From Clostridia bacterium (GTDB taxonomy: Bacteria; Bacillota; Clostridia; Lachnospirales; Lachnospiraceae), in the NCBI GenBank assembly GCA_910574835.1, contig CAJTDE010000001.1, forward strand, positions 372,001-436,000: a stretch of 64,000 nucleotides of DNA, written 5' to 3'. The notes beneath the pieces were generated by a model. That model saw only the letters and a program-made list of their open reading frames with translations, made no database searches and was not told where the DNA came from. Made by a program: the position numbers and the translations under genes. This document shows positions 4,690 to 24,239 of this stretch, piece after piece (positions within the stretch are counted from its first letter, which is position 1; the number at the start of each line of letters is the position of its first letter).

Positions 4690-7600
4690 TTATGCCATTT
4701 CATAACCCGGTTTTTGCTTGTTGTCGTCATCGTCTTTTCTTGTTTTCTTAGCGAAGATTAGCAGTGCTGCATTTGCTGCCGCAAATACGAGCATCCACAA
4801 TGTCCACTTGTCTACAAAGATCATTGGATTACGCATATCTTCTGTCAGTATGAAGAAGATTACGGATACAACTGCCGGAAGAATACTTAAGATTCGAACT
4901 AATCCCTTTCTCTTCAGCTCTTCCTGCTCCTCGTCATCCTGATACCTCCGGGCCTCGTCATTTTCCTCTTCTTCTCTCTTCTTTCCGAAGAAATATCCTA
5001 CCAGAAGAAGTATACTTACTGCCACTGTGAGAACGGAGAGAATCAGGTTTAATAGCGCCCATGCTCTCGGAGCCGCAAGCGGTGTTTCCTCATCGTCTAT
5101 CTCAATATTTTGGGCTGGCGTCTCAGGCTCCTCCGGAGTCTCATTATTGGCAAGAGGCGTCTCTTCATCTGCTATATCCTGTACAGGCGGCTCTGCCTCA
5201 GGTGTTGCCGCAGGCGTCGGCGCCGCTGCCGGAGTTGCTGCCGGTATCACGGTCTGCGCAACCGGCAATACTGCTGTCGGTGTGGGTGCCGGTCCGGGAT
5301 CCGGTGTTCCGCCGCCGCCAGTTCCGCCGCCGCCCGGTGCGGGAGGTGTAGGTGTGGTTGGAGGGGTGGGTGTGGGTGTTGGAGTCGGCGTTGGGGTTGG
5401 GGTTGGGGTTGGAGTCGGTGTTGGAGTTGGGGTGCTGGCAGCATATGTGATTACAAATTCAATATTGCCGGTAATCTCTCTTCCTGCTGCCGGCGCTTCC
5501 GGAGTCCATGTACCGTTGGGACCAAAGCCTTCATTTGCCCTTGTTGCCGGAATCTGTGCCGCATCCAATACTGCTTTTCCGTTGTCTGCTGCTGCGGCTG
5601 GTTCATCATTGTCGTTTCTTAAAGTTACAACAACTTTGTATGTACCGTCTGCTTCTGCTCCAATAACTGTTCCGTTTACTGCACGGTAAGTTACAATTGC
5701 CTGGTATTTATCCGGAATACCATCACCCTTTTTGTCCGGATCTCCTGCATCTGGTATTGTACTGTCTACAAGATCATCAACAGTACAGGTAACTGTAATA
5801 ACAACATCTCCATTTACTGTTCCGTTGCTTGGATCTTCTACTTTTTCTACAATGTAGTGATGATCTCCTATATCAATAGAATCATCTTTTTTAACCCATT
5901 GAGTTACATCATAAGTATCATTATCCTTAAATGGATCTGTGTCACCCTTAAGCTTAGGCTCGGATTTCAGTTCTGCTCCATTGTCATCTACATATATAAT
6001 TGTAACTGTTCTCTCCGGCTTTGCAATATACTGTGCGGTAAATGTATAAACTGCAGCTTTATTTTTATCAGTATTTTTAACCGGAACATTGGAGGTCTGT
6101 AAAATCGTTGCTGATGTCAAATCTACACCATGTATCCACTCAGAACCGTCTTCTGCTTCTGCTGTCCAGCTAGTAAAGTACCAATCCGGATCAGTAGCTA
6201 CTGTTGCACCGGATATCGTAACACTGCCATCCGCGGCCATCTTTCCTTCGTTCTGAATTGTCAAATACTCTGTTTTTGCTTCCTGACCATCAATAGAGCC
6301 ATGTGAAGCCGCCGCATAGACTATCTTAACCTGATATCTATCTGGGATACCATCCGTTTTTCCGCCATTGCCATCGTTATCAGGAGAATAAATTAAATTA
6401 ATCTCCACATCTGCTGTAATCGTACCCGATAGCTTATCCAGTTCTTCCTGTTTTGTCAGTACAAGATCCAAAGAATAATTCTTTCCATCCTTTTCAATTG
6501 TCCTGGGAATCTCATTCGTTGCCGCTCTAAGCACAAACATACTAACTGTATTTGTACCTTCTAAAGAATAATTATATTCCTCGCCATCCTCATGCTCCCA
6601 AGTAATTGGATCTTTCAGCTCTTCATTATCATCTGTTTGGAAATTCACTGTTATGGTGTGCGTCTTGGCTGCCGGAGTATCAGATGAACCTTCATCCTTT
6701 CCCGGATCCGGATCTTTAGTTGTACCATTATCGTTACTCTCAAGAGTTGCCTTATTTGTAACATTCCCATCTTTGATATCATCAGCAGTAAAAGATTTTA
6801 TTACATAAATCACTGCCTCATTGCCACTGATAATTCCAGTAATGGCCCTATCGGCATCTTGTTTTCCATCGCCATACACCCAGGTTGCTCCTATATCAGT
6901 TACTTTATAAGCAGCGCCATCGTCGCCTGTAACCGTTATTTTATACAAAAGGGTTACTTTACCGTCCTTGCTTGGAATCTTTATCTTTTCTGCTCCTGGG
7001 TAAGTAATGCCATAATTCTTATTTTGTTCTTCTGTAAGAGGCGAATCTCCAGCATTTTTTACTAATTCTTTTTTAAAATCAGTAAATTCCTTCTTCTTTT
7101 CTTCGCAAGTTACTTTAAATGTTGCTAATATGGTTCCCCTTGGTTCTCCGGATGCTGATTTCCATTTCTTTTCCGATTTATCATATTTTAATGTAATCGT
7201 TTTTGTTGCTTCATCAGTTAATGTATGCTTTTCGCCTACACCAAAGGCAGGCTCCATTTCATACATCTTTGCATACACATTACCATACAATGTGACATCA
7301 CAGAAATATGCTCCATCCTGCTGATAAACTGATCCTACGGATGATTCATACTGTCCATTTTCCGTTCTGTTCCATGTACTATACGTTCTATCCTCATGCT
7401 CTTCTGTTACATCATGAACTTTTACAAACGTTTTTAAAATACCATATAAATCAGTTCTTTCAGGCACATCCGGTGCTTTATCGTCATCAACCTCCCATAC
7501 AGCATAGAGGGTTTTCGAAATGGGGTTGGAAGTGCTGCCATAGCCTTCACTCCAATTTAAAGTAATGGATTCGCCCCCAATATATTTTGCTGCTGTTGCG

Positions 7601-8955
7601 TTATCCGTTTCTGCCCAGCCTAAGAATTTGTATCCTGTACGTGAAGGCTGTTCATTGGTAACGTTGAAAGTAGCACTTGTATCTGCAACTGTCTTTCTTT
7701 GAGATGTTGGAGTAGGTGCTCCGCCATTTGTATCATAATTTAACACATAGTCAGCATTAATTGTACTCGACAACGTGACATATGTTTTATACCAATAAGC
7801 TCTCCCATATAAATTCTCATAATTTTGAATTTCTACTATCCGTCTACAGTTTCCACATCTCGCATATTCATAATATGGGTCATATCTATTATAGATACCT
7901 AGATACATTGAAGTAACTCCAGGCTTTTTTGCTTCAAATTTAAATAAAAGTCCAGGGTAACCTGTGCCCGGAAAATGAGCCTTTTCACAACTTTTGTATT
8001 TAAGATATTCTGTTGATACAGGTTGATCAAATGCATAATAATCAGAAATAAATTCAACCAATATGTTCCCACAAGTGCATTTAAACGGAAGTGTTCTAAG
8101 ATAATAATATACTAAATTATCACCAACTTGTTTTGTAACTGGATTAATACTTAGATCGTCTAGCCGCATATCAAACTTTTGTGGTACAGAAGATATTGTA
8201 AGATCTTCAAGTGGATAATATACATATGGTGCAACTTCTACATCTACCAACTCTTCCAACTTCTCAAAAGCCGCCGTCATAACCTCAACCGCAGCCTGAA
8301 CGTCCTCGCGTTCCTCATACTCCGTACCAAGCAACACGTCATAAGTATCTGACACAGGACCATAGAGAAGTTCTCCAACCTCCTCCATATTGTCTATGGT
8401 AATCTCCTCCGGAATCTTCGCTACCGCATCCAAAAACGCCTGAACCTCTTCCGGGACTTCTTCTTTTACTTCTTCCTCTTCCAAAACGTTCTCATCTATC
8501 ACTTCGGAATCATCAGCAGAATTATCGTCCGCGTTCAAATCAGTATTCTTGTCATCCTTGGAAGCATCATCCTTTACCTCTTCCTCCGATTTCTCATCCT
8601 GATTTGCATCAGCTTCCTTCTTTTCTTCCTGATTTACATCATTTTCCGTAATCTCTTCCTCAGAAAGCTTATCAGATTCTTCCGCTGTCTCACCTTCGGA
8701 ATCCTCTTTTTCTAATGCATCCTCCACCGGTGTACCTGCCTTCGGTTCTTCCTCCTTTGATGCATCCTCTTTCGGCTCTTCTGGTGCCGCTTCCATTGTC
8801 TTAGCCGCATTATCTACACTTTCCTCCACGCCTGCGGGTTCATCCGCGGCAGCCGCAAAGGTAGTGGACGCAGCCAGATTGCTCAGTGTCATGCTTGCAA
8901 TCAGCATAAAGGCTAAAACCTTCGCCCAGAACCGCTTTTTTTCTTTTGTTGTCAT
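4690..8955 (-). CDS. Large surface protein with InlB B-repeat, Pro-Thr stalk and C-terminal membrane segments
   Basis: The protein has about 1421 residues. The ATG at 8955 is preferred because an AGGAGG lies 9 bases upstream and a signal peptide follows at once (residues about 1-36, ending in TFAAAA). Domains in order: a very acidic Glu/Asp-rich region (about 40-180); an all-beta region; a Listeria-Bacteroides/InlB B-type repeat (GYKFLGWAETDNATAAKYI... LYAVW, about 420-480); several MucBP/SHIRT-like beta modules with YxVTDIGATW and TVTIIYVDDNGAEL motifs; a (Thr-Pro)n stalk near 1180-1210; and two DEETPLA motifs, followed by three hydrophobic segments. There is no LPxTG, so it is probably membrane-anchored. 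It lies downstream of the second small-domain gene and BTAD regulator. The ligand is unknown. Confidence 0.85.
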   Translation of the reverse strand: MTTKEKKRFWAKVLAFMLIASMTLSNLAASTTFAAAADEPAGVEESVDNAAKTMEAAPEEPKEDASKEEEPKAGTPVEDALEKEDSEGETAEESDKLSEEEITENDVNQEEKKEADANQDEKSEEEVKDDASKDDKNTDLNADDNSADDSEVIDENVLEEEEVKEEVPEEVQAFLDAVAKIPEEITIDNMEEVGELLYGPVSDTYDVLLGTEYEEREDVQAAVEVMTAAFEKLEELVDVEVAPYVYYPLEDLTISSVPQKFDMRLDDLSINPVTKQVGDNLVYYYLRTLPFKCTCGNILVEFISDYYAFDQPVSTEYLKYKSCEKAHFPGTGYPGLLFKFEAKKPGVTSMYLGIYNRYDPYYEYARCGNCRRIVEIQNYENLYGRAYWYKTYVTLSSTINADYVLNYDTNGGAPTPTSQRKTVADTSATFNVTNEQPSRTGYKFLGWAETDNATAAKYIGGESITLNWSEGYGSTSNPISKTLYAVWEVDDDKAPDVPERTDLYGILKTFVKVHDVTEEHEDRTYSTWNRTENGQYESSVGSVYQQDGAYFCDVTLYGNVYAKMYEMEPAFGVGEKHTLTDEATKTITLKYDKSEKKWKSASGEPRGTILATFKVTCEEKKKEFTDFKKELVKNAGDSPLTEEQNKNYGITYPGAEKIKIPSKDGKVTLLYKITVTGDDGAAYKVTDIGATWVYGDGKQDADRAITGIISGNEAVIYVIKSFTADDIKDGNVTNKATLESNDNGTTKDPDPGKDEGSSDTPAAKTHTITVNFQTDDNEELKDPITWEHEDGEEYNYSLEGTNTVSMFVLRAATNEIPRTIEKDGKNYSLDLVLTKQEELDKLSGTITADVEINLIYSPDNDGNGGKTDGIPDRYQVKIVYAAASHGSIDGQEAKTEYLTIQNEGKMAADGSVTISGATVATDPDWYFTSWTAEAEDGSEWIHGVDLTSATILQTSNVPVKNTDKNKAAVYTFTAQYIAKPERTVTIIYVDDNGAELKSEPKLKGDTDPFKDNDTYDVTQWVKKDDSIDIGDHHYIVEKVEDPSNGTVNGDVVITVTCTVDDLVDSTIPDAGDPDKKGDGIPDKYQAIVTYRAVNGTVIGAEADGTYKVVVTLRNDNDEPAAAADNGKAVLDAAQIPATRANEGFGPNGTWTPEAPAAGREITGNIEFVITYAASTPTPTPTPTPTPTPTPTPTPTPTPPTTPTPPAPGGGGTGGGGTPDPGPAPTPTAVLPVAQTVIPAATPAAAPTPAATPEAEPPVQDIADEETPLANNETPEEPETPAQNIEIDDEETPLAAPRAWALLNLILSVLTVAVSILLLVGYFFGKKREEEENDEARRYQDDEEQEELKRKGLVRILSILPAVVSVIFFILTEDMRNPMIFVDKWTLWMLVFAAANAALLIFAKKTRKDDDDNKQKPGYEMA
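5340..5440. repeat. Hexamer repeat encoding the Thr-Pro stalk
   Basis: Degenerate 6-bp units of the GGTGTT/GGGGTT type (plus strand) encode about 13 consecutive Thr-Pro pairs of the large surface protein. The low complexity is prone to slippage in multiples of 6 bp, which would change stalk length without breaking the frame. The ORFs on the opposite strand here are artefacts of the repeat. Confidence 0.8.
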
Positions 8956-9095
8956 CCTTGACATCCTCCTTTCATCCATTTACCCGTGTTCCCGGGACTT
9001 TTGCACCTCAAAGGGCGCTTCCATTTTGAATCCCTTCTTAATGCTCTGTGTTCCCTCGATCTGTCATTTGCTGCTCCAACCTCTCACCCCCTGTG

Positions 9096-9571: not shown

Positions 9572-10753
9572 TTATACAGTCTGCAATGCGGAAATACGGT
9601 ATGTAAGGCAAGCCTTCGAATGACGGTAGATTCTATGGAAGCTGCTGTCTATTCGGCTCATGACAAGCTGCGCGCTCTCCTCATTGGCTCCGGTCAGCAT
9701 TAAAATATAAGAGCCTGCCTCCAGTCTGGCAACCGAATCACCTGACCGCAGCCCTTCCAGAAGAACCCTTTCCAGCCTCCGCGTATCCGTAGCAAGCGCA
9801 ACATCTCTTCCCAAGCTTACAATGACAAGGGATGATTTCTGCTTGGAACGCGCTATATGACGTTTTTCCAATGCTACTATACTCTGAAACATTTCAAAGG
9901 TACAGAAAAATGCCCGCTGCTCCAAATCTCCCTCTAATACCAATTTAAAAATATCCGATGCCCCCAGCTCTTTTTTCCCAAGCCCCATAGCCAGGGCATA
10001 GATCTGCTCTATCTGTTCCCCCGGAGACAATTCAAATTCCTGAAGCATCTTTGTCCGAAAAGCTCCGTATATCTCCATAGCCTGCCCTGTCTGTCCCAGG
10101 GCAATCAGCGCCCGCATCCGATAAGCGGCAAAGTCCTCCACTGCAAAATCTATCTGATATGCCTGCTCGCAAACAGTAACGATCTCCATCCATCTGTCTT
10201 TCTTCCATAGAACAGGCAAAACCTTCCTGCATGCATCCAGATAAAGCGCGCGGTAGTACTGCCGCAATACAATGACCCATTCGCTGTCATTGGAAGAAAG
10301 AAAGTCCCCTCTATACAGGGCAATTGCCTGAAGCAGCAATTCACAGTAAGTATCCTCCGATTCATTTCCCGCCTCCAGACAGGCAGCTTCAAACTGCTCC
10401 GTATCCAGCTCGAGGCAGACATTCGGATTCCATGCGTAATAGCCGGAAAAGGTTAAAAGCAAATCATCCTGGTTCGAAAACATAACCTTTAACAGATTCC
10501 GAACCTTGAACAGCATATGCCGCAATGCATTTGCCGGCGCAGCGCTTCCGCTGTCTGTCCAAAACCGCTCTATCAACTCCTCCGAAGAAATGTTTCTGTT
10601 GTGATTTACAATCAAATATTGCAAAAAAGACAGGGTCTTTTTTCCTGCCTTTGGGGCTGACTCCCGTTTGCTTGTTTCTCCCCCTTCGCTGCTGCCATAA
10701 ACAAATGAGCCTAATAACTCAAAATGTATGATTCGTTTCCCCTCAATACTCAT
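9572..10753 (-). CDS. BTAD/SARP-like transcriptional regulator with degenerate GGDEF-like C-terminus
   Basis: The protein has 393 residues. The N-terminal winged helix (about 8-105, HFELLGSFVY... KTLSFLQYLIVNHNRNISSEELIERFW) is of the OmpR/PhoB type used by SARP/AfsR activators. The helical bacterial transcriptional activator domain follows (about 115-250, LELDTEQFEAACLEA... ALIALGQTGQAMEIYGAF). The C-terminal 120 residues resemble a diguanylate cyclase fold (LRSGDSVARLEAGSYILMLTG), but the GGDEF signature reads EAGSY, so catalysis is unlikely. It is paralogous to the regulator at 30235-31557 and lies next to the candidate invertible promoter at 10874-11099. It probably activates the surface genes on either side; target sites are not known. 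The start ATG follows GAGGGG. Confidence 0.85.
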   Translation of the reverse strand: MSIEGKRIIHFELLGSFVYGSSEGGETSKRESAPKAGKKTLSFLQYLIVNHNRNISSEELIERFWTDSGSAAPANALRHMLFKVRNLLKVMFSNQDDLLLTFSGYYAWNPNVCLELDTEQFEAACLEAGNESEDTYCELLLQAIALYRGDFLSSNDSEWVIVLRQYYRALYLDACRKVLPVLWKKDRWMEIVTVCEQAYQIDFAVEDFAAYRMRALIALGQTGQAMEIYGAFRTKMLQEFELSPGEQIEQIYALAMGLGKKELGASDIFKLVLEGDLEQRAFFCTFEMFQSIVALEKRHIARSKQKSSLVIVSLGRDVALATDTRRLERVLLEGLRSGDSVARLEAGSYILMLTGANEESAQLVMSRIDSSFHRIYRHSKACLTYRISALQTV

Positions 10754-10873: not shown

Positions 10874-10900
10874 TATCATAGAGAATTATACTCTGCGACA
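10874..10900 (+). repeat. Left inverted site of candidate switch
   Basis: It is a dyad with spacer AATTATA at 10884-10890 and inner arm CTCTGCGACA. The outer arm matches the right site's arm at 7 of 10 positions. Confidence 0.7.
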
Positions 10901-11016
10901 AAAAATGAATTGATATATGACGCAATGCCGTCTTTTTAGCAGTCAAATATGCGGAATAAGCTTTGTAATGGTACAAACGAACCCTACGACCGCTCCTGAG
11001 CGGAAAAATTTTTATA

Positions 11017-11045
11017 TTGCATAATCGAGATTAACTAAGTATAAT
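11017..11045 (+). promoter_or_regulatory. Promoter-like element inside candidate invertible segment
   Basis: TTGCAT (11017-11022) and a perfect TATAAT (11040-11045) are separated by 17 bp on the plus strand. In the present orientation it points at the right-hand palindrome and at the 3' end of the convergent sipW operon. If the segment were flipped, it would face the BTAD regulator gene. Confidence 0.5.
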
Positions 11046-11072
11046 AAAAGAAACACAAGATTTAGAAAACTA

Positions 11073-11099
11073 TGTCGCAGAGTATAATTCTCTGCGACA
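11073..11099 (-). repeat. Right inverted site of candidate switch / terminator-like palindrome
   Basis: It is a perfect 10-bp dyad around a 7-bp spacer, followed on the plus strand by TTTTT (11100-11104). It may therefore also act as a terminator for rightward transcripts from the internal promoter. Confidence 0.7.
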
Positions 11100-11202
11100 T
11101 TTTTACTGCATTTCACACACTGGATTCACCATCCCTTCCCAAGCGAAAACAAATTAAAACAGCTTTACCGAATCCTTTTGCCTGTCTTCAAAGGATGCAA
11201 AA

Positions 11203-11236
11203 GAAAAAAGGCGCCTCAAAATGAGACATCCTTTTT
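11203..11236 (-). terminator. Intrinsic terminator of the surface-structure operon
   Basis: On the minus strand an AAGGATGTCTCA / TGAGGCGCCTT imperfect stem is followed by TTTTTTCTT. It lies just downstream of the sipW-like gene, the last gene of the long surface cluster. Confidence 0.7.
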
Positions 11237-11257: not shown

Positions 11258-11782
11258 TCAATCCTGATCTTTTAGCCTGTTTCCCAGGATTCGAAACAGA
11301 ACTCCTGCACCTAAGATTCCTGCCAGATAAATTTTTCCGGACATATTTGCCAGCAAAGGCAAAAGATAGCCCAGCAAAGGAATCGACAGCTCCACTCTGC
11401 CAATCACATTGCCGTAGGCGATAGGAAGCACATCATTCTGTGCATTCGCATCTCCCTTCGTTAGAAGCTCCTGTTCCTCCTGATGATTCTCCACGGCCCG
11501 ATGAGTTATGATTGTAGTGGAGTCATGGCCTCCGTAAAATACAATCACTTCTCCCACCGCTATCTCCTGCGGCGAAGTCTGTCTTGCATAAACCACACTT
11601 CCTACCGGAATTGCAGGCTCCATACTGCCGCTGATAATCGAGTAAAGCTGATAGCCAAACAAACGAGGCACAGTAAGGGGTATACAAAGCAGGATTACCA
11701 GCAGAAGCAGCGCCAGGCCAAAGCCGCCGCATAAGGTTCCCAGCCAGGAGCGCTTCTTCTTTTCTATTATTTCAGTTCCCAA
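11258..11782 (-). CDS. sipW: SipW/archaeal-type signal peptidase I
   Basis: The protein has 174 residues with an N-terminal membrane segment (about 15-40) and a C-terminal one (about 140-165). The catalytic Ser is in ISGSMEPAIPVGS. The general base is His (ITHRAVE) and not Lys, as in the ER/SipW branch of signal peptidases, and GDANAQND carries the conserved Asp. SipW enzymes process TasA/camelysin-type fibre proteins. Three upstream genes in this operon (13553-14404, 14401-14946 and possibly 12776-13546) have matching features. The start is TTG at 11782 with GAGGAG 8 bases upstream, overlapping the end of the previous gene by 16 bp. It is a second, different peptidase from the LepB type encoded at 23555. 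Confidence 0.88.
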   Translation of the reverse strand: MGTEIIEKKKRSWLGTLCGGFGLALLLLVILLCIPLTVPRLFGYQLYSIISGSMEPAIPVGSVVYARQTSPQEIAVGEVIVFYGGHDSTTIITHRAVENHQEEQELLTKGDANAQNDVLPIAYGNVIGRVELSIPLLGYLLPLLANMSGKIYLAGILGAGVLFRILGNRLKDQD

Positions 11783-12783
11783 TTGTCCAGCTCCTCATAC
11801 GCATGTTCACGCCGCTTTTTCCACATCACAACTCCCATTGCAATCAGCGTCGATACTGCCGCCAAACCGATTATAATGGATGCTCCGTACACAAAACGTC
11901 CTTCTGAATTAATAAAGAGATCGCGGATGCCTGCCAAGGGCACTTCATCATCATCCAGATTCATAAGCTCTCCCGGACCCTGGGGCACCTCGGCGTCCGG
12001 AATGGCTGTGGTACCGCCCTCACCGTTGTCACCTTCATCAGCATCGGCCATTCCGCCTGCTCCTGCACCTCCGGCTGCATTGTCACCCTCTGACAGAATT
12101 GTGACGCTTCCGGGGACAATCACCGTATTCGTTCCTTCATCCGTCACAGTTGTAGTCGTAGAGCCTGCCGCCGCTTTGTGATATATAAAAGTAAACTCAT
12201 TCTTAGACTCATCGCTTACAAGCGTGCGCGTCAGATTGTATGCCTGAGGCTCGTAACCTTCTATATACAGGAAAGCCATCACCGGTTTATCGCCCACATT
12301 TCCATAATAGGTTTCGCTGGGCGCCAGGGTATTGCCTGCTTCATCCCGATAATTGATATGATAGGCTACCATATCTCCCTTGATGCCATAAGCCACTACA
12401 AAGTCCCGATCACTTTCCACCAGAATCGAATTACTGCTTATCTGAGCCACGGTATTGTTATCCCGTCCGCTTTGACGGATTCCTTTTACATAATATTTAC
12501 TGTCCGCGGGAAGCTGAATCATGGCCGCCGCATTGAAGCTTACCCTGTCCCGATAGCTCAGGCCGCTGATGGTTATCTTATCTTTGCCGCCTGCGACCGT
12601 ATATTTTGAGGAAAGCCCTGATAAACCATTTGTTCCTGAAAATTCTCCCTGGTTGCCGGCATAAAAGGTCAGAGTATAAGTATAAGGATCTCCATCCGCC
12701 GCCTTACTTTCTATTGCAGGTAATGCAGAAACAAGCAGGCCAAGGGATAGAATCACAAGTCCGATTCTGCGCCATCTATTCAT
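11767..12783 (-). CDS. Secreted MucBP-domain surface protein with DEVPLA motif and C-terminal anchor
   Basis: The protein has 338 residues. The start is the ATG at 12783 with GGAGGGAAGGA upstream; longer in-frame readings upstream overlap the previous gene and lack a signal. The signal peptide covers about residues 1-28 (ending SKAADG). A beta-rich region is followed by a MucBP-like module (VAYHINYRDEAGNTL... EGYEPQAYN... FTFIYHKA, about 140-205). A Gly/Asp-rich linker and the motif LDDDEVPLAG precede a single membrane helix and a Lys/Arg tail. The DExPLA motif recurs twice in the surface protein at 4690-8955. It overlaps the previous gene by 8 bp and is probably an accessory surface or fibre component. 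Confidence 0.82.
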   Translation of the reverse strand: MNRWRRIGLVILSLGLLVSALPAIESKAADGDPYTYTLTFYAGNQGEFSGTNGLSGLSSKYTVAGGKDKITISGLSYRDRVSFNAAAMIQLPADSKYYVKGIRQSGRDNNTVAQISSNSILVESDRDFVVAYGIKGDMVAYHINYRDEAGNTLAPSETYYGNVGDKPVMAFLYIEGYEPQAYNLTRTLVSDESKNEFTFIYHKAAAGSTTTTVTDEGTNTVIVPGSVTILSEGDNAAGGAGAGGMADADEGDNGEGGTTAIPDAEVPQGPGELMNLDDDEVPLAGIRDLFINSEGRFVYGASIIIGLAAVSTLIAMGVVMWKKRREHAYEELDNWELK

Positions 12784-13546
12784 GTTCCTTCCCTCCTTTG
12801 CCCCTGCGGCTGACAATTGCCAGCCCCATAAAGCCGATTCCGCCCAATAAAGCCAGCAGCGACCAGAGCAGGATCTGATTCTCATCGCCTGTGCGCACAT
12901 CATTTCCTACCCTGTATATATCGTTGGATTCCCGGCGGCTCCCGTTCGTAGAAGTCGCATTGCCCGTACCTCTCAACTTCTCCACTGCAAAGTTCATCTG
13001 CAGCTTTGCAATGGTATTCTGATACGTATTTCCGCTTGTCTCCCCATCCAGGGCTACCTTCAATGAAATGGAAGCCTTCGCTTTGCTGTCCAGCTCATCC
13101 AGATAAAAGAAGTCCTCCAGCCCGTTTGTCGCCTCATGAAGTCCCTCGCCTGCTGCGGTGACGGTCTCGCCGCCTACCGTCTCGCTGCTGTAAAGCGTTG
13201 TATTCTCACCTTTGCTGTTCTTATACGTTAATACATAGGTGTAAGCGCTTCCCTCCGCCACCTTCTGGCTGTCCTCCAGGCTTTGAAGAACCGTGTTGGT
13301 CATATACCAGTCTGTCGCTGAGGTATCGTTATTCTCCAGGCTGATACTGATAGCTATACTGTCGCCCGGCTGCAGAGACGATATTGCATCCGCAATATCC
13401 GAGGACTTGAAATTGCTCTCCATCTTATTTCCAACAAACCGCACATACCAGCCGTTTCCGCCTATATAGTCCTCCGCATGGACTGTCATCACACTCCCTG
13501 CCGCAAGAAGCAGGATTAGAAATAAACTGCAAAGCCTTTTTTTCAT
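12776..13546 (-). CDS. Secreted pilus/fibre-associated protein with C-terminal sorting-like tail
   Basis: The protein has 256 residues. The signal peptide covers about 1-25 (LFLILLLAAGSVMTVHAED). The middle is a secreted domain with ISISLENNDTSATDWYMTNTVLQSLEDS, similar to SipW/TasA-associated proteins. The C-terminus has DVRTGDENQ followed by a hydrophobic stretch and a basic tail, arranged like a sortase signal but with DVRTG in place of LPxTG. Whether the class C sortase upstream accepts it is not known. It is translated in the middle of the operon, with an 8-bp overlap to the next gene. Confidence 0.78.
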   Translation of the reverse strand: MKKRLCSLFLILLLAAGSVMTVHAEDYIGGNGWYVRFVGNKMESNFKSSDIADAISSLQPGDSIAISISLENNDTSATDWYMTNTVLQSLEDSQKVAEGSAYTYVLTYKNSKGENTTLYSSETVGGETVTAAGEGLHEATNGLEDFFYLDELDSKAKASISLKVALDGETSGNTYQNTIAKLQMNFAVEKLRGTGNATSTNGSRRESNDIYRVGNDVRTGDENQILLWSLLALLGGIGFMGLAIVSRRGKGGKEHE

Positions 13547-13552
13547 ATTCTC

Positions 13553-14404
13553 CTACCTCCCTAACCTTAGATTTCCGTCTGCGTCTACTGTCACGTCAAC
13601 ACCCCAGGCGCTTCCGATTGCATCAACAGCATTGTGAGTCTGTACCGCATCCACATCAATCTCTAATACAAACTCTACCCCGTCATAGTCATAGGTCATG
13701 GTGATTGTTTTGTAATTCCCGTTGACCGTTTCCGTTGTTGTTACCTTTTTCGCCACCTCTTTATCGATTACCAGGTTATCCGCAAAAGGCGGACTTACTT
13801 CGTCCGTTTTTAAGATTCCTGTGTAATAAAGGACGGTTCGCTCCTTTGTGCTGGCATTTTTATCCAAGACCCACCCCTGAGACTCGGAGGGCATCCCGTC
13901 TTTTTCTATCCACGGATTCAGCCGTATCCATTCGGGAGATATATCCCTGCGCTTTTCACGCTCTTCTACGGGAATGGGATCCTCTCCCTCTTTCGGCGCA
14001 TCCACCCAATAGCGGTAAATCATCACGCGCACATATTGATCGATATTCCCGGTGTTCTTCACACACAGCTCTTCTTCGTACTGCCGCCCGGGCTGGATCT
14101 CCCCATATGTTTCCTTCCCGTCCTCCTGATTATTCAGCAAATAGGTCAGCAAAGCGCTGCCGCCCTCATCCCACTCATCGTCCTTCTGTGTATAATTTCT
14201 CCAGCTGACTTCTTTTCCGTTTTCCATCAGAGTCACGCCGATATCAAACATGCGAAGCTCCGCCGAATAATTTTCACTGTAATAAGTCAGGGCTGCCTGG
14301 CTGCTTCCGGCTACGCTTCCAAGCAGCAGCAATACAGCTGTGCCAAAGAGAAGCCATGTGGTATAGGCGCCTTTGGATCTGCTTTTATTGTTCTTCTTTT
14401 TCAT
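13553..14404 (-). CDS. SipW-dependent-type secreted protein (TasA/camelysin-like)
   Basis: The protein has 283 residues. The N-terminus has a basic stretch, a hydrophobic core with LLLGSVAGSSQAALTYYSEN and then a beta-rich domain, the usual appearance of SipW-processed proteins. It has no C-terminal anchor. The conserved block VKNTGNIDQYVRVMIYRYWVD (about 145-165) is typical of TasA/camelysin-type beta-sandwich proteins. It starts inside the stop region of the previous gene (ATGA overlap). It is inferred to be an exported fibre subunit or its partner. Confidence 0.8.
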   Translation of the reverse strand: MKKKNNKSRSKGAYTTWLLFGTAVLLLLGSVAGSSQAALTYYSENYSAELRMFDIGVTLMENGKEVSWRNYTQKDDEWDEGGSALLTYLLNNQEDGKETYGEIQPGRQYEEELCVKNTGNIDQYVRVMIYRYWVDAPKEGEDPIPVEEREKRRDISPEWIRLNPWIEKDGMPSESQGWVLDKNASTKERTVLYYTGILKTDEVSPPFADNLVIDKEVAKKVTTTETVNGNYKTITMTYDYDGVEFVLEIDVDAVQTHNAVDAIGSAWGVDVTVDADGNLRLGR

Positions 14405-14946
14405 GATCCGGTCACCTCACTCTCTTCAGGCTTTATAGACAAATTCCAGTCCGCATAAGGTGTTCCGTCCTCCTGATACAGCACTGGGGTGCTCTCCTGG
14501 ACAACGATTACATTGAAATTATCAATGTCAAGGCCCATCAGCTCCGGACTCACACCGATTTCAACAGACAGTACATTCGTCGCTTCTCCCGGCTTTAAAA
14601 CAGACTCATAATACCACCAGCCATCCGCATCCTTTCTCCAGTGCGCGGCGCCTCCCTCCGGTACACTCTCGCTCTCCGTAAGCTTAAGCAGGCTTCCGGC
14701 ATATATCCTTGCACGTACAAAGCAGTCAGCGTCTCCCGTATTTACAATCTGGATCTTTTTGATAAATCCTTCTATCTCCTCTTTAATCTCTGTCTTAGAA
14801 CCAAGGACCAGACGGGCGCTCCCCCTTGTAGTTGTGTAGGTTGTAAAATACGCCAGTGAATCCTTAAGCGAAGATCCAAATAGCAGTATCAGGGCAAAGG
14901 CTGCCAAAAAAACTGTCCGTCTGCGGTATAATTGCTTCCTACTCAT
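14401..14946 (-). CDS. SipW-dependent-type secreted protein (TasA/camelysin-like), shorter paralogue
   Basis: The protein has 181 residues. The signal segment (about 10-32) ends in SLAYFTTYTTTRGSARL, the characteristic form of TasA/CalY precursors in which the cleavage region is followed by Y/F-T-T. The domain contains KKIQIVNTGDADCFVRARIY, the same NTG...VR pattern as its neighbour at 13553. It overlaps both flanking genes by a few bases, so the set is translationally coupled. It is probably a structural subunit of an extracellular fibre matured by the SipW-like peptidase of the operon. Confidence 0.8.
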   Translation of the reverse strand: MSRKQLYRRRTVFLAAFALILLFGSSLKDSLAYFTTYTTTRGSARLVLGSKTEIKEEIEGFIKKIQIVNTGDADCFVRARIYAGSLLKLTESESVPEGGAAHWRKDADGWWYYESVLKPGEATNVLSVEIGVSPELMGLDIDNFNVIVVQESTPVLYQEDGTPYADWNLSIKPEESEVTGS

Positions 14947-16243
14947 TGGCCGCCTCCTCCTTATGATCGCCGCCCACTATCTGCACGCCGACCCATTTCG
15001 TGTCTTCCTCAGAATAAGTGAAATGGTTGGCAATGCCTGTTCCAAATGTGGTGGTCTCGTCATAGTCGTTGGTAAAAGTTATCTTTGCAGCAGTCTCGAC
15101 GCCATCCTCGTCGATTCCTCCGTTTACCTCGCCGGAAGCACCCAGAAGCGCGGTGATTTCAATGGTTGGATTGTCTGCTTCGCCCGTAAAGACCTCGGAA
15201 GCGGGATTCCATGTTTCGCCGCCCCATCCAGTGAGCTTGTAAGAGGCTCCTGTATAAACCTCCTTCACCGTTACTTTGGTACCGGCCGGAATCTTCTTTA
15301 CCAGAACACTCTGCTGACCGGGTTCTTTAAAATTCATACCCAGCATATCACTGTATACTACCTTGGAGTTTTCTTTTCCCTCCGCATCCTTGTCTGTCTT
15401 GACGGCTTCTACCTGGAATACAAACATAGCTTCACCTAAAGATTCGTTGTAGGTCGTAAGACTTTTTACGATCTCCAGGTTTAAATAGCGAACTCTCTGC
15501 TGAGGCTTAAGCCCTACTGTCACATCATAAATCCAACTATCCGAAGCATCCGGCGTCTGTCCGTATTCATTATTCGGCAGGGATACCAAATACGGCAGAA
15601 AAGTGTATTCACATTTCGGAGCCGCAACAGGCTTTACCCATACCAGATACAGTCCCTGTTTCATATCGTCCGCCCTGCCAAAAGGTGTTTCCGTCTCCTG
15701 AAAGGCTTTTGTATCAATGGTGATCTTCTTCTCCGGTTTAGGGAGATCTTCTTCCTTTGGTATTACAAGCTCGCCCAAAGTCTCTTCTGTCCCGTCCTCT
15801 CCGGTTTTTTCCGAAACAGGAAGATTATAGAATTTTGCCGCATAGTGAGCCAGAGCTTCCCAATCCGCCGCCTTCACATCTTCATTAAAAATACTCCTAT
15901 TCAGTTCTTCCAGCTTCCAGGAAATGGGGTATGTGCCGGAAGCTATGTCTTTCTCTACCGCTTTTTTAAAGTCCTCTGCAGGATCAAAGCCTCCAAAGCT
16001 GTCCGTGGCTGCGATTCGATAAAGATATACCTCAATCCCGTCTTTTGCATTTTTCAAGTCTTCCCAGTCTACATGGTCCGCCTCACTTTTCAAGGAATCT
16101 ATTTTGACAGTCAAAGAGCAAGGCTTCTCCGTATCTATCTTCCCCCGTGCAAAAAGATTCATCTGAGGCAGTAAAAACGCAAGGCATAGAACCATAACGA
16201 TTCCGGCACAAAGCCAGCCTGTTTTCCCATATCTCGTTCTCAT
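14939..16243 (-). CDS. Secreted Cna-B-like pilus-associated protein without LPxTG
   Basis: The protein has 434 residues. The ATG at 16243 is preferred because GAGAGGA lies at the right distance; an earlier ATG two codons upstream overlaps that site. A signal/anchor segment (about 8-32) is followed by domains that resemble pilin and DUF5979/Cna-B-like modules: YLYRIAATDSFGGFDPAEDFKKAV, GLYLVWVKP and a late block LVKKIPAGTKVTVKEVYTGASYKLTGW. It ends in an acidic tail with no membrane helix or sorting signal. It lies immediately downstream of the sortase gene, so a pilus base or accessory role is inferred. Confidence 0.75.
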   Translation of the reverse strand: MRTRYGKTGWLCAGIVMVLCLAFLLPQMNLFARGKIDTEKPCSLTVKIDSLKSEADHVDWEDLKNAKDGIEVYLYRIAATDSFGGFDPAEDFKKAVEKDIASGTYPISWKLEELNRSIFNEDVKAADWEALAHYAAKFYNLPVSEKTGEDGTEETLGELVIPKEEDLPKPEKKITIDTKAFQETETPFGRADDMKQGLYLVWVKPVAAPKCEYTFLPYLVSLPNNEYGQTPDASDSWIYDVTVGLKPQQRVRYLNLEIVKSLTTYNESLGEAMFVFQVEAVKTDKDAEGKENSKVVYSDMLGMNFKEPGQQSVLVKKIPAGTKVTVKEVYTGASYKLTGWGGETWNPASEVFTGEADNPTIEITALLGASGEVNGGIDEDGVETAAKITFTNDYDETTTFGTGIANHFTYSEEDTKWVGVQIVGGDHKEEAANE

Positions 16244-16259
16244 ACACATTCCTCTCTTT

Positions 16260-17075
16260 CTATCTCTTCCGATGGCGAACCATTAGCCAAAGCAGCAAAA
16301 GCAGCAATATGGGCGCCATCAGGATCGGTGTAATCAGAATCGGTTTCAGCTGCATGGCATCTGCTGTCACACGGATGGAAGAAGCATCTGCCAGGTTCTC
16401 AATCCGATGACCGCGCACCAGCATACGGTGGCTGTTAATCCCATAAGGTGTACAGGTTACCAAGGTACAATAGTCCATATCATTGATCAGTTCCAGATCC
16501 TGAAGCTCTTCCGGAAGTACAATGTGAATCTGATCCACTTCATAGGTCAAGGTCTCATCTAATACGCGAAGCACAAAGACATCGCCTTCCTGAAGCTGAT
16601 CTAAATCGGTAAACAGCTTTGCCGACGGCAAGCCACGATGACCGGACAGCACGCAATGAGTCCCCGGTCCCCCTACGGGCAAAGAGCTTCCGCCAATGTG
16701 TCCGACTGCAATCTGCAGAACAGATTCCTCTACACCATGATAGATAGGAAGATAACAATTGATGCTCTCAATCTCAATATAACCCATGATTCCATTGCCG
16801 GAGACATCCAGCAAAGACTCATATTCCTGATATTCCTCCTCCGACATGCTGTAGCGGTTTCCCTTGCTCCATAAGGTATCATTGTAAGCTCTGGCATCAT
16901 TCCACAGCTTTTCATAAGTCTCATTGTCCAGATCCGCCACAGCCTCCGCATAGTTGGCAATGGCCTGGGACTGGTGAAACTTGTTCCAATAATCGCTGAC
17001 CGTAGGATACAGCAGCAAGGACAAGCCTGCAAGCAGGATGGTAATTAAAATAATATTGGATAAATGTTTCTTCAT
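16260..17075 (-). CDS. Class C (pilus) sortase
   Basis: The protein has 271 residues. The ATG at 17075 is chosen because AAGGAG lies 8 bases upstream and the signal-anchor begins there; the longer reading to 17129 adds an unlikely segment. An N-terminal transmembrane helix, the catalytic His in CVLSGHRGLPSA, Cys in YCTLVTCTPYG and Arg in HRMLVRGHR are all present, and a second C-terminal membrane segment is typical of class C enzymes. It should cross-link the LPxTG pilins encoded directly upstream (17161 and 18761) on the outer membrane face. A stem-loop at 17100-17125 lies between the pilin gene and this one. Confidence 0.93.
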   Translation of the reverse strand: MKKHLSNIILITILLAGLSLLLYPTVSDYWNKFHQSQAIANYAEAVADLDNETYEKLWNDARAYNDTLWSKGNRYSMSEEEYQEYESLLDVSGNGIMGYIEIESINCYLPIYHGVEESVLQIAVGHIGGSSLPVGGPGTHCVLSGHRGLPSAKLFTDLDQLQEGDVFVLRVLDETLTYEVDQIHIVLPEELQDLELINDMDYCTLVTCTPYGINSHRMLVRGHRIENLADASSIRVTADAMQLKPILITPILMAPILLLLLLWLMVRHRKR

Positions 17076-17099
17076 GCAGACTTCTCCTTGCTGTTGTAT

Positions 17100-17125
17100 G
17101 CCAGAGAGACAACCGCCTCTCTGGC
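17100..17125 (-). other. Intergenic stem-loop between major pilin and sortase
   Basis: Perfect arms GCCAGAGAG / CTCTCTGGC enclose an 8-base loop with no U-run after it on the transcribed strand. It is therefore more likely an mRNA processing or partial attenuation element, lowering sortase relative to pilin, than a terminator. Confidence 0.5.
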
Positions 17126-17160
17126 TCAACAGACAAATTATAGTTTCAATTTCAAAAGCT

Positions 17161-18693
17161 TTATTTCTCGCTGCTCATACGTTTCTTTACTACCAGCATA
17201 ATGCCGGCGCCTACTACCAGGATGCCGCCCAGTACGTAGAAGATCGTTGTACCGATACCACCGGTGGAGGGAAGCTCTGCACCTGTGTTATTTAAAACCT
17301 TAACGGTTTCTACCGGAGATGTAGTATCCTCTATGGTACTCTCGTTTTCTTCATTCAGCATACCCTGTTTTATTTCAGCTTCGCCAAGGCTCTTGCCTGT
17401 ATTTGGGTCTTTTTTTTCAATAATCTGGATCTCAATCGGTCTCGGTAGCATATTGTAACCTGCGGGTGCCTCTATCTCTGTCAGATAGTAAGTCCCGGCA
17501 GCCAAGCCCCTGAATGTCAGCTTGCCTGTATCACCTGTTGTGATTTCACTGGTCTGGGAATTTTTATCAACTTTATATACGGTAGGATCTTCTTTATCCT
17601 GACTAAATGTTATTGGGTTTGTTCCATCAGCATTAGTGGATAATGTAAATTTTGCACCTGCCAACATCACTTCTTCGTTGTCTTTCATTGTATATTTCTC
17701 TACATCAAACTCATAAACATATGTTTTTGTCTCGGATTCCTCCGTTGTATTGCCTTCACCAAAGTCAAGGGTTGCTTTGTTTGTCTCAGGATCTTTGCCG
17801 ATATTGGCATTCTCATTGACAGTCGCCTGATAGGATACAACAAGCGTGCTGCCTGGTGTCAGACTTGTGCAGTAAGCTTCGTTAAATACAACCTCAAAGG
17901 TACATCCATCTTCCAGATTAGATGTTTTAAGTTCATAATTCTCTGCTCCAACCAGCGTACCCTTTGTCGCATCCGTTTCACCTTCCGGAAGCAATGTTAC
18001 TGTCACCTTTCCGCCAAAGGTAAGTCCTTCTGACATTACATCATGCAGCACATATTTTTCGGAGCCTTTTTTTACATTAATTTTTACCTGGAAATCAAGT
18101 ACGTCTCCAATAGATGCGGTGTTCTCATCTCCCCAGTTTCCGTCTTTGTCCTTAACTTCCTTTTCTGTGGTTGTCTTTTCGTTCTTTTCCTGCATTTCCA
18201 CCTTTGGCTGTGTTGTGTCCAAAGAGCACAGAGCACCTGTATTAGAATCAACCAGATAGTAACCAAGTTCCAGGCCACTAAACACCAGAGTTTCGCCTTC
18301 TACTGCAATTTTTGTAGCTGTTGCCCCAATCTTCTTGTCTTTTGCATATGTCAAAGCCAGCTTTGCAAATTCCTGTGCTCTTTCAGCCGAAGCATCACCT
18401 ATCCATGTAATATAACCCTGAGCATCAACTGTTACATAATCCTTTCCAGCTCCATTTGTAACAAACTCTTTCCATAAAGCATCAGTTACTTTATAAGCAA
18501 ATGCTCTCTCATCTTCGTTCTCTTCTGTACTATGACTTTCCAGATCAAAGATTTTGTAAATCTTATACTCCTGTCCCGCCAGTGCCCCAGTAACGGTAAT
18601 CTCTCCATCTCCAGCCGCCATTACCGGAAGCCCCATCGCCAGCACCAATACCATAGCCAGTGCAAAGCTCAGTAACTTTTTCATACGTTTCAT
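17161..18693 (-). CDS. Major pilin, isopeptide-forming SpaH/EbpB-like fimbrial protein
   Basis: The protein has 510 residues. The ATG at 18693 has GGAG 9 bases upstream. The signal peptide covers about 1-25 (LVLAMGLPVMAAGDG). The N-terminal pilin domain ends near TTQPKVEM, where pilin Lys motifs lie. The central domain (about 185-300) is typical of fimbrial isopeptide-forming shafts. A Cna-B domain carries the E-box in YYLTEIEAPAGYN. The C-terminal sorting signal LPSTGG is followed by a hydrophobic helix and a basic tail. It is the expected polymerised shaft subunit of the sortase pilus, with its sortase encoded just downstream. Confidence 0.93.
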   Translation of the reverse strand: MKRMKKLLSFALAMVLVLAMGLPVMAAGDGEITVTGALAGQEYKIYKIFDLESHSTEENEDERAFAYKVTDALWKEFVTNGAGKDYVTVDAQGYITWIGDASAERAQEFAKLALTYAKDKKIGATATKIAVEGETLVFSGLELGYYLVDSNTGALCSLDTTQPKVEMQEKNEKTTTEKEVKDKDGNWGDENTASIGDVLDFQVKINVKKGSEKYVLHDVMSEGLTFGGKVTVTLLPEGETDATKGTLVGAENYELKTSNLEDGCTFEVVFNEAYCTSLTPGSTLVVSYQATVNENANIGKDPETNKATLDFGEGNTTEESETKTYVYEFDVEKYTMKDNEEVMLAGAKFTLSTNADGTNPITFSQDKEDPTVYKVDKNSQTSEITTGDTGKLTFRGLAAGTYYLTEIEAPAGYNMLPRPIEIQIIEKKDPNTGKSLGEAEIKQGMLNEENESTIEDTTSPVETVKVLNNTGAELPSTGGIGTTIFYVLGGILVVGAGIMLVVKKRMSSEK

Positions 18694-18736
18694 CACTTAT
18701 TCTCCTTTTCCCTTTTTATTTTGATTCATAATTCTT

Positions 18737-18753
18737 ACGGCCTAAGGCCGCGT
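18737..18753 (-). other. Short GC-rich palindrome between adhesin and pilin genes
   Basis: A GCGGCCT / AGGCCGT dyad lies in the 67-bp gap between the adhesin stop and the pilin start. No U-run follows. It could be a processing hairpin that raises pilin mRNA relative to the upstream adhesin. Confidence 0.35.
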
Positions 18754-18760
18754 ACTTCAT

Positions 18761-21700
18761 TCAGTTCCTGGAGGAATCTCCCCTCCTTTCCCCGAATTTT
18801 TTTCTATACATCAGGCCCGCAATCAGCAGAAGGCTGATGCCTGCCATTGTATATAAGTTCGTACCGGCGCCGCCTGTCTCCGGCAGCTCATAGACATAGC
18901 AGCTATTGTTGAATACTGTTTCCACAACAACTCCCTCTGCCAAAATCTCGCCGGAAGCAAGCTTTTTCGACACTACCTCTCCGGGCGACCGCTGTTCTTT
19001 TCCACCCACCAGTATCTGTGTATAATAATAGCGATCGTCATGTTCCAACTCTTCAATCGTAAACTTCGTACCGACAGGCAGATATTTTACCTCGATATAT
19101 TCTCCTGCCTTTAGTGTAAACTCACCGCCGTCCCAGATGATCAAATCACGGGCACATTCATTCCCATTGGCATCATATTTGATATAAGAATAATCGTCCG
19201 GCAAATTCTTACCGTTTTCATCCGTAAAATGAATCCTGAACTGAAATTCGTCTCCAAGATCAACGTTATCGCCATCTTCTTTGCTCGTTACAAACTTTCT
19301 CACTTTCAAAGAGCTGGTTAACTGATCCGGCGCTATGGAAGTAACGGAAGGCAGTGTAAACTGCATCCAGCAGGTAGAACCGGAAGCGCCGCGTTCGGTG
19401 TAAAAGAACTTTAAAGTATGCTTTCCTGTCTTATTGCTTCCGTCTTCATTTCGCATATAATCCCACAGATCTACATACTCTCCCACGGATGCGTGGACAC
19501 CGCCGATGTCACAGACGAGTTGCGAATTTCCCTGTTCATCACACAGGAATACCCACATGTCGTCATCTCCAAAGAAAAGATACTCCAAAGGACCTGCATA
19601 GTCTTCTGTCAGTTCAAAATCAACGGAGTAAGACATACCAAAATAGCTATTGTGATCCGATTTGTCGTCACAGGCCGGAAGGCTGCCTTCCGCTCCATTC
19701 GCCCCCTTAAATTTTCGATTACCCACCTCCGCTTTACTGCCGAATTTTATATCATGCCCGTCGGCCCCCCAGGTGGGCGCTGAATCCATCGGCCAGAAAT
19801 CATTGCTCCATATGATTCTTTTCGTGCTCCAGGAAGTTCCGTTGTTATGGAAAGTGTCCAGTCCTTCTATCCCTGCTCCATCTACGCTTGTTAAAGTATA
19901 GGTATCTCCTTCACGGCTAAAGCCCAGTTTGTATTGAGTTGAAAAAATCGACTTTCCAACTTGTGGTTCCGGTCCGAATATCTTTGGCGCCGAAACATTA
20001 AAATTCAAAGAATCACCGCTCACTCCCGACACCAGCCCAAAGGTACATCCTGTGGAATTTTTTAACGAATTTGACATATTAAACTTATTGTCGTTCCAGG
20101 TATTTTCCCCAAAGGCTGTTCCTGCATTTCTGTTACCAAATGCATATTTTGAGGCTGCATCACAATTTTGACTGCTGTTAATGCCGTATGCCGATGTGTT
20201 CATATATTGAACTCCGCCCTCTGATCCATGCTCTCCATCACTGATGTCATAATCATAAAAGGTTGATGCAATATTTTTATTGCCTGTCGTCGGATCATAT
20301 ACCAGCCGAATCGTTGACTTATCATTAATCAGTATATACTGCGCGTTCCCCTCCGCCGTAACCTTACGGTTTGTGAAATGCAGATTACTGTCATACGGCC
20401 AAACCGTCCAATCCTCCGCATTGGTACTGTCTGCCTGCTCACATATCAAGCCGCCGTCTCCGTTATAGCAAGACTCCATATGGTTGTGATTAAGCACCCA
20501 TATCTCTTTTAGATTGTAGCCTCCATTTTCAATCAGAGCATTAAAATGGTTGATACCCGGAGACTTAATATATTCAAAATCTTTTACCTTACATACCTCT
20601 GTCAGAGTTTCTCGAGTTTTGATCTTCCCGTCTCCGTTTTTATCAATATAAATATTCTTAATGGTTCCTTCTGCTCCATTTTGAGGCAGATTTCCGCCGC
20701 TTGTATCAATCACATTCAGCCCATCCAAAGCAGAAAGATCAATATCTTCATATTGAGAGATATTATTTGAATCCACTACTCTTGAAAGATTAGCATAATA
20801 CTGTACCTGGAATCTGGGGTTTGCCTGGGAAGCCGCATACAGTACGATGGTATCCTCCTTCGTGGTAACTACCATCTTCTCATCTTCGCCAAGAACCATC
20901 GTATTCAGCGCATTTACTTCTTTCTCTTCCGACAGTTCGAGAACTCCTACTGCAATATCCGTCTCGGCTTCTTCAGTTTCCTCTGCAGAAGCCTCAAGAG
21001 TATCCGCTTTATCTGCAAATTGGCTCAAAGCCTCAGCCGGCGTAACCTCTGCCGTAACCACACATTCGGACAAATCCAGCTCTTCACCCTTATACGACAG
21101 GCTGTAAGACAAAGCCTGAACCAAAAGCAGCTCGCTTTCCTCATCCACTTCTTCCGCATAAGCTGCAGCCGAAGCACATTCTTCCGAATCTTCTTTTAAC
21201 GGTGTTACCGCAAAGCTCAGCTCTTCATTCTTTTGTGTTTCTTCGCCTTCATTTTCTGTCTCCGCAGCCTCAGATCCTTCCACTGCAGAATCTTCCGAAG
21301 CAATCTCTTCCTCCATTTCTTCTTCCGTGAACAGCATCACAGGGCCTTCCTGCTCCTCCGTCTTTGGTTCATCCGATGTATCCAAAGCCTCTGTCTCTTC
21401 TGCCTCTTCTGCCTCTTCTGCCTCTTCTGCCTCTTCCGTCTCCTCAGGCGCCGGCTCTTCGTTCGGCTCCAAAGACTCGTCAGTCCCTGCTTCCTCCGGC
21501 AGTGCGGCATCTCCTTCCACATGGAAGGTAATGTGGAACGCTTCGTCCTCATACTCAAAGGATTCCGACAGATGGATTGTTCCGTTTTCCCCTGTCCGAT
21601 AACCGATGGCTATCTCGGAAAAGCTGTTCATTTGGAAGGTGGTGCTGCTATTTTCCACATTGCTGTTATCCAGTACTTCCGTATCTTCTTCTCCGAAGTG

Positions 21701-23524: not shown

Positions 23525-23554
23525 AGGAATTGCCTCCTTTTCCAAAAACGACTA

Positions 23555-24139
23555 TCACCTTACCGTGCCAAAGCTCCCAATCGGCCAGACACGAAACACC
23601 AGCTTCCCTACCAACTGCTCCTCAGATACACAGCCTACGGTTGTACTCCGGCTGTCCACGGAAACGCTTCTGTGATCGCCCATAACGAAGATGCGATTTT
23701 CCGGAACCTGATAGGGAAGCTTGATATCACATTCCCCAACGGCCCGTTCTGTCAGATAGGGTTCATCCAGCAGCACATCATTCACATATACGTTGCCGTC
23801 CTCATCCATGTCCACCCATTCGCCGGACATGGCAATCACTCGTTTTACCAGAATCTTATTATTATAATAAAATGCCACCACATCACCCGGCTTAAAGTCT
23901 GTTGTCTTCCAGGTGGCAATGATATCGCCGTCATACAAAGTAGGACTCATACTTGTTCCATATATCTGCAGCACCGGCATCAGTAAAGTTGCAATCAGAA
24001 CGGCTATGGCCGCTACTACAATCAGCGTACTTACCGTACTTGTCAATACTCGTTTGTAGCGCTTTTTGTACTTAACCCGATTCAATTCCTCTTCTAATTG
24101 GGAAAGCTCCGGCACTTCAATTGCTTTTCTTTTCTTCAT
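23555..24139 (-). CDS. lepB: Signal peptidase I (LepB type)
   Basis: The protein has 194 residues from the ATG at 24139, which has GTGAGGA upstream; an in-frame ATG at 24211 would add 24 residues but lacks a good ribosome binding site. After a Lys/Arg-rich N-terminus there is one membrane segment (about 35-58). The catalytic Ser is in YGTSMSPTLYDGD and the Lys in KILVKRVIA. The box FVMGDHR has the usual form except that SVSVDSRS replaces the common N-SxDSR wording. It is encoded directly upstream of the adhesin and pilin genes, like the dedicated peptidases of many sortase-pilus loci, and probably processes their signal peptides. Confidence 0.92.
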   Translation of the reverse strand: MKKRKAIEVPELSQLEEELNRVKYKKRYKRVLTSTVSTLIVVAAIAVLIATLLMPVLQIYGTSMSPTLYDGDIIATWKTTDFKPGDVVAFYYNNKILVKRVIAMSGEWVDMDEDGNVYVNDVLLDEPYLTERAVGECDIKLPYQVPENRIFVMGDHRSVSVDSRSTTVGCVSEEQLVGKLVFRVWPIGSFGTVR

Positions 24140-24239
24140 AATCATCCTCACTGCTGTCCCGAAAGCCATTACACGTTTAAGACGAGTTCTGCTTCTATCC
24201 TGTCGGGACATATGCCGCAGCGCACCTGCAGGTTATCAA

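Follow-up and report, generated by a model that had tools for sequence, protein, structure and literature searches.

Introduction

The Hin recombinase of Salmonella is a serine recombinase, and Mpi of Bacteroides is likewise of the serine type. In Salmonella, the hin recombinase gene lies inside the invertible segment, and Mpi acts as a master recombinase (passages of PMC5903667). In C. difficile, a short invertible segment lies by the surface-protein gene cwpV, and its OFF state arises through an intrinsic terminator next to an inverted repeat (passages of PMC2784873). Among gut Clostridia, inverton group 139 comprises 33 invertons, 32 of them from the class Clostridia, and is statistically linked to the tyrosine-type invertase group 35; two of its examples are 255 and 257 bp long, and the study followed shifts of orientation in culture (PMC11892184). 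Sortase pili of Bifidobacterium breve are switched ON and OFF by replication slippage (PMC9187656). The open-access literature, represented mostly by titles and the openings of abstracts, yielded no DNA-inversion switch linked to a BTAD regulator or a sortase pilus.

Here we analysed a stretch of 64,000 bp, referred to as the window, from contig C1 of a Lachnospiraceae draft genome (G000). We conclude, at a probability of roughly 0.8, that a 226-bp segment within it is an invertible promoter, assembled in the OFF orientation, for a BTAD regulator of a sortase-pilus and surface-protein locus. The cassette would belong to an already known kind, the promoter invertons, and possibly to the published group 139, which it resembles in length and in its occurrence in Clostridia, and its long relatives in the link to tyrosine-type enzymes (PMC11892184); neither "BTAD" nor "sortase" occurs in the main text of that article. 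Transcription of cwpV starts outside its invertible segment (passages of PMC2784873), whereas the window promoter lies inside (11017-11045), so that attenuation of the cwpV type, with the promoter outside, does not describe the locus. Like Hin, the long relatives of the cassette carry a recombinase inside the segment, but the window copy carries none (PMC5903667, in part); unlike Hin, the enzymes in those relatives are tyrosine recombinases. The flipping of several loci per genome by a shared recombinase, as proposed here, has its parallel in Mpi (PMC5903667, in part), from whose system the window cassette differs in bacterial class and sites. The B. breve switch is alike in turning sortase-dependent pili ON and OFF in a gut commensal and unlike in using slippage rather than DNA inversion (PMC9187656, in part).

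Results

Two inverted sites enclose a putative outward-facing promoter

The following features of the window are needed for the argument.

10874..11099, no strand: candidate invertible promoter cassette, recombinase-less, 226 bp
10874..10900, plus strand: gene-side recombination site with outer arm TATCATAGA, spacer GAATTATAC and inner arm TCTGCGACA
11073..11099, plus strand: far-side recombination site with perfect palindromic arms TGTCGCAGA/TCTGCGACA and spacer GTATAATTC
11017..11045, plus strand: putative outward promoter TTGCAT-17-TATAAT, a match in sequence only, pointing away from the BTAD gene (OFF)
11072..11104, plus strand: hairpin made up of the far-side site and the TTTTT behind it, at which intrinsic termination of the OFF transcript is predicted
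11212..11228, minus strand: terminator-like hairpin after the last pilus-operon gene (fold of -15.2 kcal/mol over 11196-11245)
9572..10753, minus strand: BTAD-domain (SARP-like) regulator, the proposed target, starting 120 bp from the cassette
4690..8979, minus strand: 1429-aa FILTED-domain/MucBP surface protein, downstream of the BTAD gene
11258..24211, minus strand: sortase-pilus operon, putative from its layout

The two inverted sites of the original prediction were confirmed at 10874-10900 and 11073-11099, with an identical core of 21 bp (10880-10900 with 11073-11093). Within the 64 kb, exact 21-bp inverted repeats no more than 1 kb apart are confined to two places, this cassette and the long hairpin at 53.5 kb, and 30 first-order Markov resamples gave none; chance would not be expected to produce an exact repeat of this length in a stretch of that size. 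The far-side spacer is the reverse complement of the gene-side spacer. Three mismatches separate the gene-side outer arm from the consensus arm, as many as in the outer arms of two relatives that both hold recombinases (L094 and L101). The proposed layout of 10-bp arms around a 7-bp spacer fits the window taken alone; the family as a whole has conserved arms of 9 bp around a locus-specific spacer of the same length.

As in promoter invertons, inverted repeats flank a short segment, and a promoter inside it, recognised by sequence match, reads out of one end. Its boxes (TTGCAT at 11017-11022, TATAAT at 11040-11045) face away from the BTAD gene as had been predicted, and the promoter ends 53 bp from the cassette end. 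A generic promoter scan missed it because the -35 box matches only three of six bases; the same scan, which thus also overlooks the inside promoter, listed no minus-strand promoter-like site from 11400 down to the BTAD start. Family searches of 14 window proteins returned no recombinase, in agreement with the original prediction. A translated comparison gave a single recombinase match in the 226 bp among the matches listed, at E 0.46, and the cassette is not a self-encoded one.

The TTTTT expected behind the right-hand site is present at 11100-11104, and site and tail together form a predicted terminator-like hairpin (-17.9 kcal/mol, z -7.2), the palindrome scoring as terminator-like on both strands. 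When the segment was flipped in silico, the gene-side hairpin was weaker (-6.6 kcal/mol). A crossover site doubling as OFF terminator is consistent with these fold predictions, and such a double role would explain the silence of a promoter so near the neighbouring operon. The hairpin at 11212..11228 would, in turn, limit read-through from the pilus operon into the cassette.

The window holds two further palindromic repeats. At 53516-53684 lies a near-perfect palindrome of about 169 bp (201-nt RNA fold of -118 kcal/mol, z -17) with seven genome copies, itself included, at 97-100% identity, probably a recently active MITE-like repeat. An imperfect palindromic repeat of about 220 bp at 47802-48030, at the boundary of two reading frames, has about 40 further genome copies at 74-84% identity.

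Spacers are specific to each locus and matched within each pair

Copies of the cassette were found by searching G000 and its genus with the segment and with the arms, and exact sites were scanned for in a one-genome-per-species collection of 84,980 species. The family site reads TGTCGCAGA-N9-TCTGCGACA with variable outer arms; its 9-bp spacer differs between loci and matches in inverted orientation within each pair. The scan returned 64 stretches, of which 27 contained a matched inverted pair and 36 a lone site only; the remaining one, L129, contained an unrelated repeat. Stretch ends cut off some of the lone sites, and the partner of L111 was found in L178. From 44 inverted rows we retained 34 distinct pairs, genus loci included, after dropping three rows of L129 (a cyanobacterial repeat in all orientations), a 2210-bp row of L075 and duplicates of genus loci (L102, L115, L119, L127, L133 and L137). 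These 34 pairs were selected at no more than two spacer mismatches and gathered largely with the motif, and are no independent sample.

Because that list required spacer similarity, a selection by arms alone is the fairer test of spacer matching. With at most three arm mismatches and sites 150-1700 bp apart, in 83 loci, the spacers matched at seven or more of nine positions in inverted register in 28 of 28 pairs (9/9 in 22) and in direct register in none. At four arm mismatches, inverted matches made up 30 of 34 pairs, the rest being three unmatched pairs and one pair from the mixed L075 assembly that matched in direct register. As a control, spacers paired across loci matched at 7/9 or better in 6.1% of 1,122 pairings.

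Single sites with two mismatches occurred in all 16 genus genomes, and a reversed control pattern in 12 of them; in another single-site count the reversed control outnumbered the matches (37 against 26). Exact matches behaved differently, the reversed control giving none in 15 of the 16 genus genomes and one in G007. At the level of the bacterial family, exact sites were present in 3 of 299 genomes, and sites with one mismatch in 5/299 versus 4/299 for the reversed pattern. Since the controls weaken the single-site counts, our argument rests on matched pairs and exact matches. The cassette family occurs in both Lachnospiraceae and Oscillospiraceae.

Lone sites with similar spacers in Mesorhizobium and Rhodobacter had no matched inverted partner and were read as an unrelated shared motif. 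Carriage by phages was also rejected, as the TGTCGCAGA pattern had no match in IMG/VR and the TTTCGTAGA pattern, a second arm type, had one (L199). In the latter (L199:1660-3088, IMGVR_UViG_3300035512_000671), a site pair encloses a related recombinase and adjoins what by eye is an apparent DNA cytosine methyltransferase gene, possibly a phase-variable modification locus.

Long cassettes carry a tyrosine recombinase, short ones do not

By span, the 34 pairs fall into 21 of 1085-1637 bp and 13 of 226-493 bp. A tyrosine recombinase homologue lies inside all 21 long pairs and inside none of the 13 short ones. The reading frame in L145 starts 128 bp outside the site, the gene in L039 is broken, the L043 enzyme is without an internal piece, and the short L080 has a recombinase 14 bp away, outside the cassette. 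The enzyme of L040 matches PF00589 (Phage_integrase), which for the relatives excludes the Hin/Mpi serine type, and the catalytic R-K-H-R-H-Y set is complete in 25 of 26 aligned recombinases. Matched spacers at the same arms in relatives, together with the tyrosine recombinases inside larger versions, fit the earlier proposal of tyrosine-recombinase-type sites.

In seven other genomes with short cassettes we searched for the enzyme. Five of them (G061, G062, G063, G064 and G067) have a recombinase inside a matched pair, which fits action in trans; G066 has a recombinase without a pair, and G065 gave no match at 1e-40.

The enzyme expected elsewhere in the genome of the window was found only as a candidate. 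In the G000 draft (96% complete, 133 contigs, contamination estimate 4.63%), the closest protein to the cassette recombinase query, at C15:86267-87226, is just 42% identical, and no recombinase above that value was found. On contig C1, the only match to this query among those listed lies at 107003-108157, outside the window (372001-436000). Inverted repeats were looked for around the C15 gene, and none was convincing. The C15 recombinase clade (G000, G002, G004, G005, G012 and G013) is separate from the genus TGTCGCAGA cassette recombinases and goes with TTTCGTAGA sites, exact in G000, G002, G004, G012 and G013 and a degenerate pair in G005 (L080). G006 has one exact TTTCGTAGA site and, among the matches listed, no C15-type enzyme.

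Other cassettes in the same genome

A second cassette of G000 lies on contig C45 (L036), which is assigned to this genome on the strength of the assembly. The cassette is 248 bp long with spacers matching at 9/9, and its promoter faces genes for a GGDEF protein, a BTAD protein and a serine-rich protein of 1937 aa. This serine-rich repeat protein, encoded at L036:11358-17171 downstream of GGDEF and BTAD, had no Pfam family match.

Three cassettes of 246-267 bp with TTTCGTAGA sites (C9:145685-145931, C10:60442-60708 and C29:27940-28185; L173-L175) adjoin LoaP-like NusG paralogues (NCBIfam LoaP scores of 109.5-117.0 bits, under the cut-off of 125). Their promoters point away from the antiterminator gene, two of them (TTTACG-17-TATGAT) fitting only a looser promoter rule. 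Sugar-transferase and other glycan-type genes, assigned by eye, follow the cassettes in C10 and C29, and C9 is less clear. These cassettes form a Clostridial parallel to the UpxY switches of Bacteroides.

Promoter placement and orientation across loci

A TTGNNN-17-TANNNT promoter that reads outward and lies 38-70 bp from one end was present in 28 of the 34 pairs, compared with 64 of 13,974 strand-windows in flanking DNA, under a rule (17-bp spacing, 38-70 bp) fixed after inspection of promoter placement in the cassettes. The pairs that fail it are L080, L084, L086, L094, L116 and L144. Promoter and recombinase gene diverge in 18 of the 18 long cassettes that have such a promoter.

To compare orientations, the outer arms served as a fixed frame because they stay put on inversion. 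Gene maps served to assign a target side in 11 pairs; the other 23 of the 34, with no clear or checked target, were omitted. Eight promoters point away from the target (the window, L039, L040, L041, L042, L044, L045 and L147) and three toward it (L036, L140 and L141), so both orientations occur among homologous loci; the orthologous cassette pairs L039/L040 and L042/L045 are all OFF. The far-end hairpin is the stronger one in 10 of the 11 loci (exception L044), with a difference below 1 kcal/mol in L036. More T follow the far end in 11 of 11, the gene side of L141 also having 6 T of 8. Terminator asymmetry is not universal, as L044 and L141 illustrate.

One assembly of the same genus (G004:C2), with arms TTTCGTAGA/TCTGCGAAA and its own recombinase inside, has the left flank on both sides of the cassette. 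The copies are identical at 533 of 537 positions, with four mismatches at the ends and a single N, and a second copy of the left inner end precedes the other flank. The simplest reading appears to be that both orientations coexisted in the population, and a real duplication is also conceivable. Elsewhere, the end of contig L107 coincides with a site, and contig L139 stops one base short of one.

Neighbouring genes

The cassette lies between the 3' end of the minus-strand pilus operon and the BTAD regulator. The operon encodes a SpaH/EbpB-type LPXTG major pilin, a 1594-aa fibro-slime/LPXTG protein, a sortase, accessory proteins and a signal peptidase (23555-24211), with a second peptidase at 11258-11782 just under the Pfam cut-off. 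From this neighbourhood we infer that the BTAD protein would control the pilus genes.

BTAD genes and homologues of the window pilus-operon proteins also adjoin the cassettes of L039, L041, L044 and L147. Pilus-operon homologues occur without BTAD in L042 and L045, which have an accessory gene of unknown family (a weak AP2 match below cut-off), and BTAD without a pilus homologue in the stretch covered in L040 (a 155-aa BTAD fragment) and L140. The direct ortholog of the window locus, L038 (G002:C20), has a single site only. Conservation of these neighbours supports, and does not prove, that the switch would govern fibre production.

The 230-bp cassette of L141 (5786-6015, A24_16.AM.DSS) has its promoter toward an operon that includes a fusion of an NAD-epimerase with further domains, and target and neighbours look unrelated to pili. 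Just upstream of the sole remaining site in G002:C20, nested inverted repeats (L006:1239-1462; 43 nt at 98% and 45 nt at 80%) are perhaps scars of aberrant rearrangement.

Discussion

The comparative evidence from related cassettes supports the invertible-promoter reading as originally put forward. The family would be built on 9-9-9 tyrosine-recombinase sites, and a recombinase acting in trans on the window cassette would flip the 226 bp by strand exchange within the locus-specific spacer. In the OFF orientation, the promoter would fire away from the BTAD gene, and the transcript would meet the far-side palindrome and its TTTTT as an intrinsic terminator. After a flip in this strain, it would fire through the gene-side site into the BTAD gene, the decayed outer arm there giving a weaker hairpin with fewer T behind it. 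The BTAD protein may then activate the adjoining pilus and surface-protein genes.

The strongest alternative is that the window copy is a locked remnant which lost its own recombinase by deletion, so that no enzyme acts on it now and the BTAD gene is fixed OFF or run by read-through. The 42% ceiling on recombinase identity in G000, the decayed gene-side arm, the reduction of the G002 ortholog to one site and the pairing of C15-type recombinases with TTTCGTAGA-type sites instead all speak for it. However, the two G000 cassettes, of which one is assembled OFF and the other ON, have both kept spacers matched at 9/9. G000 is also a draft genome, and five of the seven other genomes with short cassettes do have a recombinase inside a matched pair. 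We consider this alternative rather unlikely and give it some weight because the C15 enzyme may not act on TGTCGCAGA sites.

It is improbable that the sites are the ends of a small transposable element, here a recombinase-less derivative, whose inversion is incidental. The long and short forms do resemble autonomous and non-autonomous pairs, exact sites are rare in the bacterial family, and the cassettes sit at different loci; yet the spacer is locus-specific and still matched within each pair, promoter placement is constant, and many genus cassettes adjoin surface-structure regulators. That the right-hand palindrome is merely a transcription terminator and the left site a chance or decayed copy, with no recombination, agrees with the terminator-like score on both strands but is very improbable and was rejected, as a terminator needs no second inverted-register site with the same spacer, the pairing holds in 28 of 28 pairs, and recombinases lie between the larger site pairs.

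Beyond the invertible promoter itself, we tentatively suggest, as a possibility with the odds somewhat against it, that flip cassettes of this kind are portable, with the window copy as a non-autonomous member, and that at least five G000 cassettes of two arm types make up one randomised surface-control network. In the autonomous form, two sites would enclose a tyrosine recombinase together with an outward promoter divergent from it; crossover would take place at both sites, and one of them would also terminate transcription. The locus-specific spacer would keep each cassette private, so that one enzyme could serve many. Members of the network would be the pilus BTAD gene, the adhesin BTAD gene and the three LoaP-like antiterminator loci.

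If the invertible-promoter reading is true, production of pili and adhesins in little-studied gut Lachnospiraceae would be an ON/OFF property of single cells, and existing metagenomes would reveal its state through the orientation of the DNA. The rules for arms and spacers would give a simple pattern by which such switches may be located and their shared enzymes guessed.
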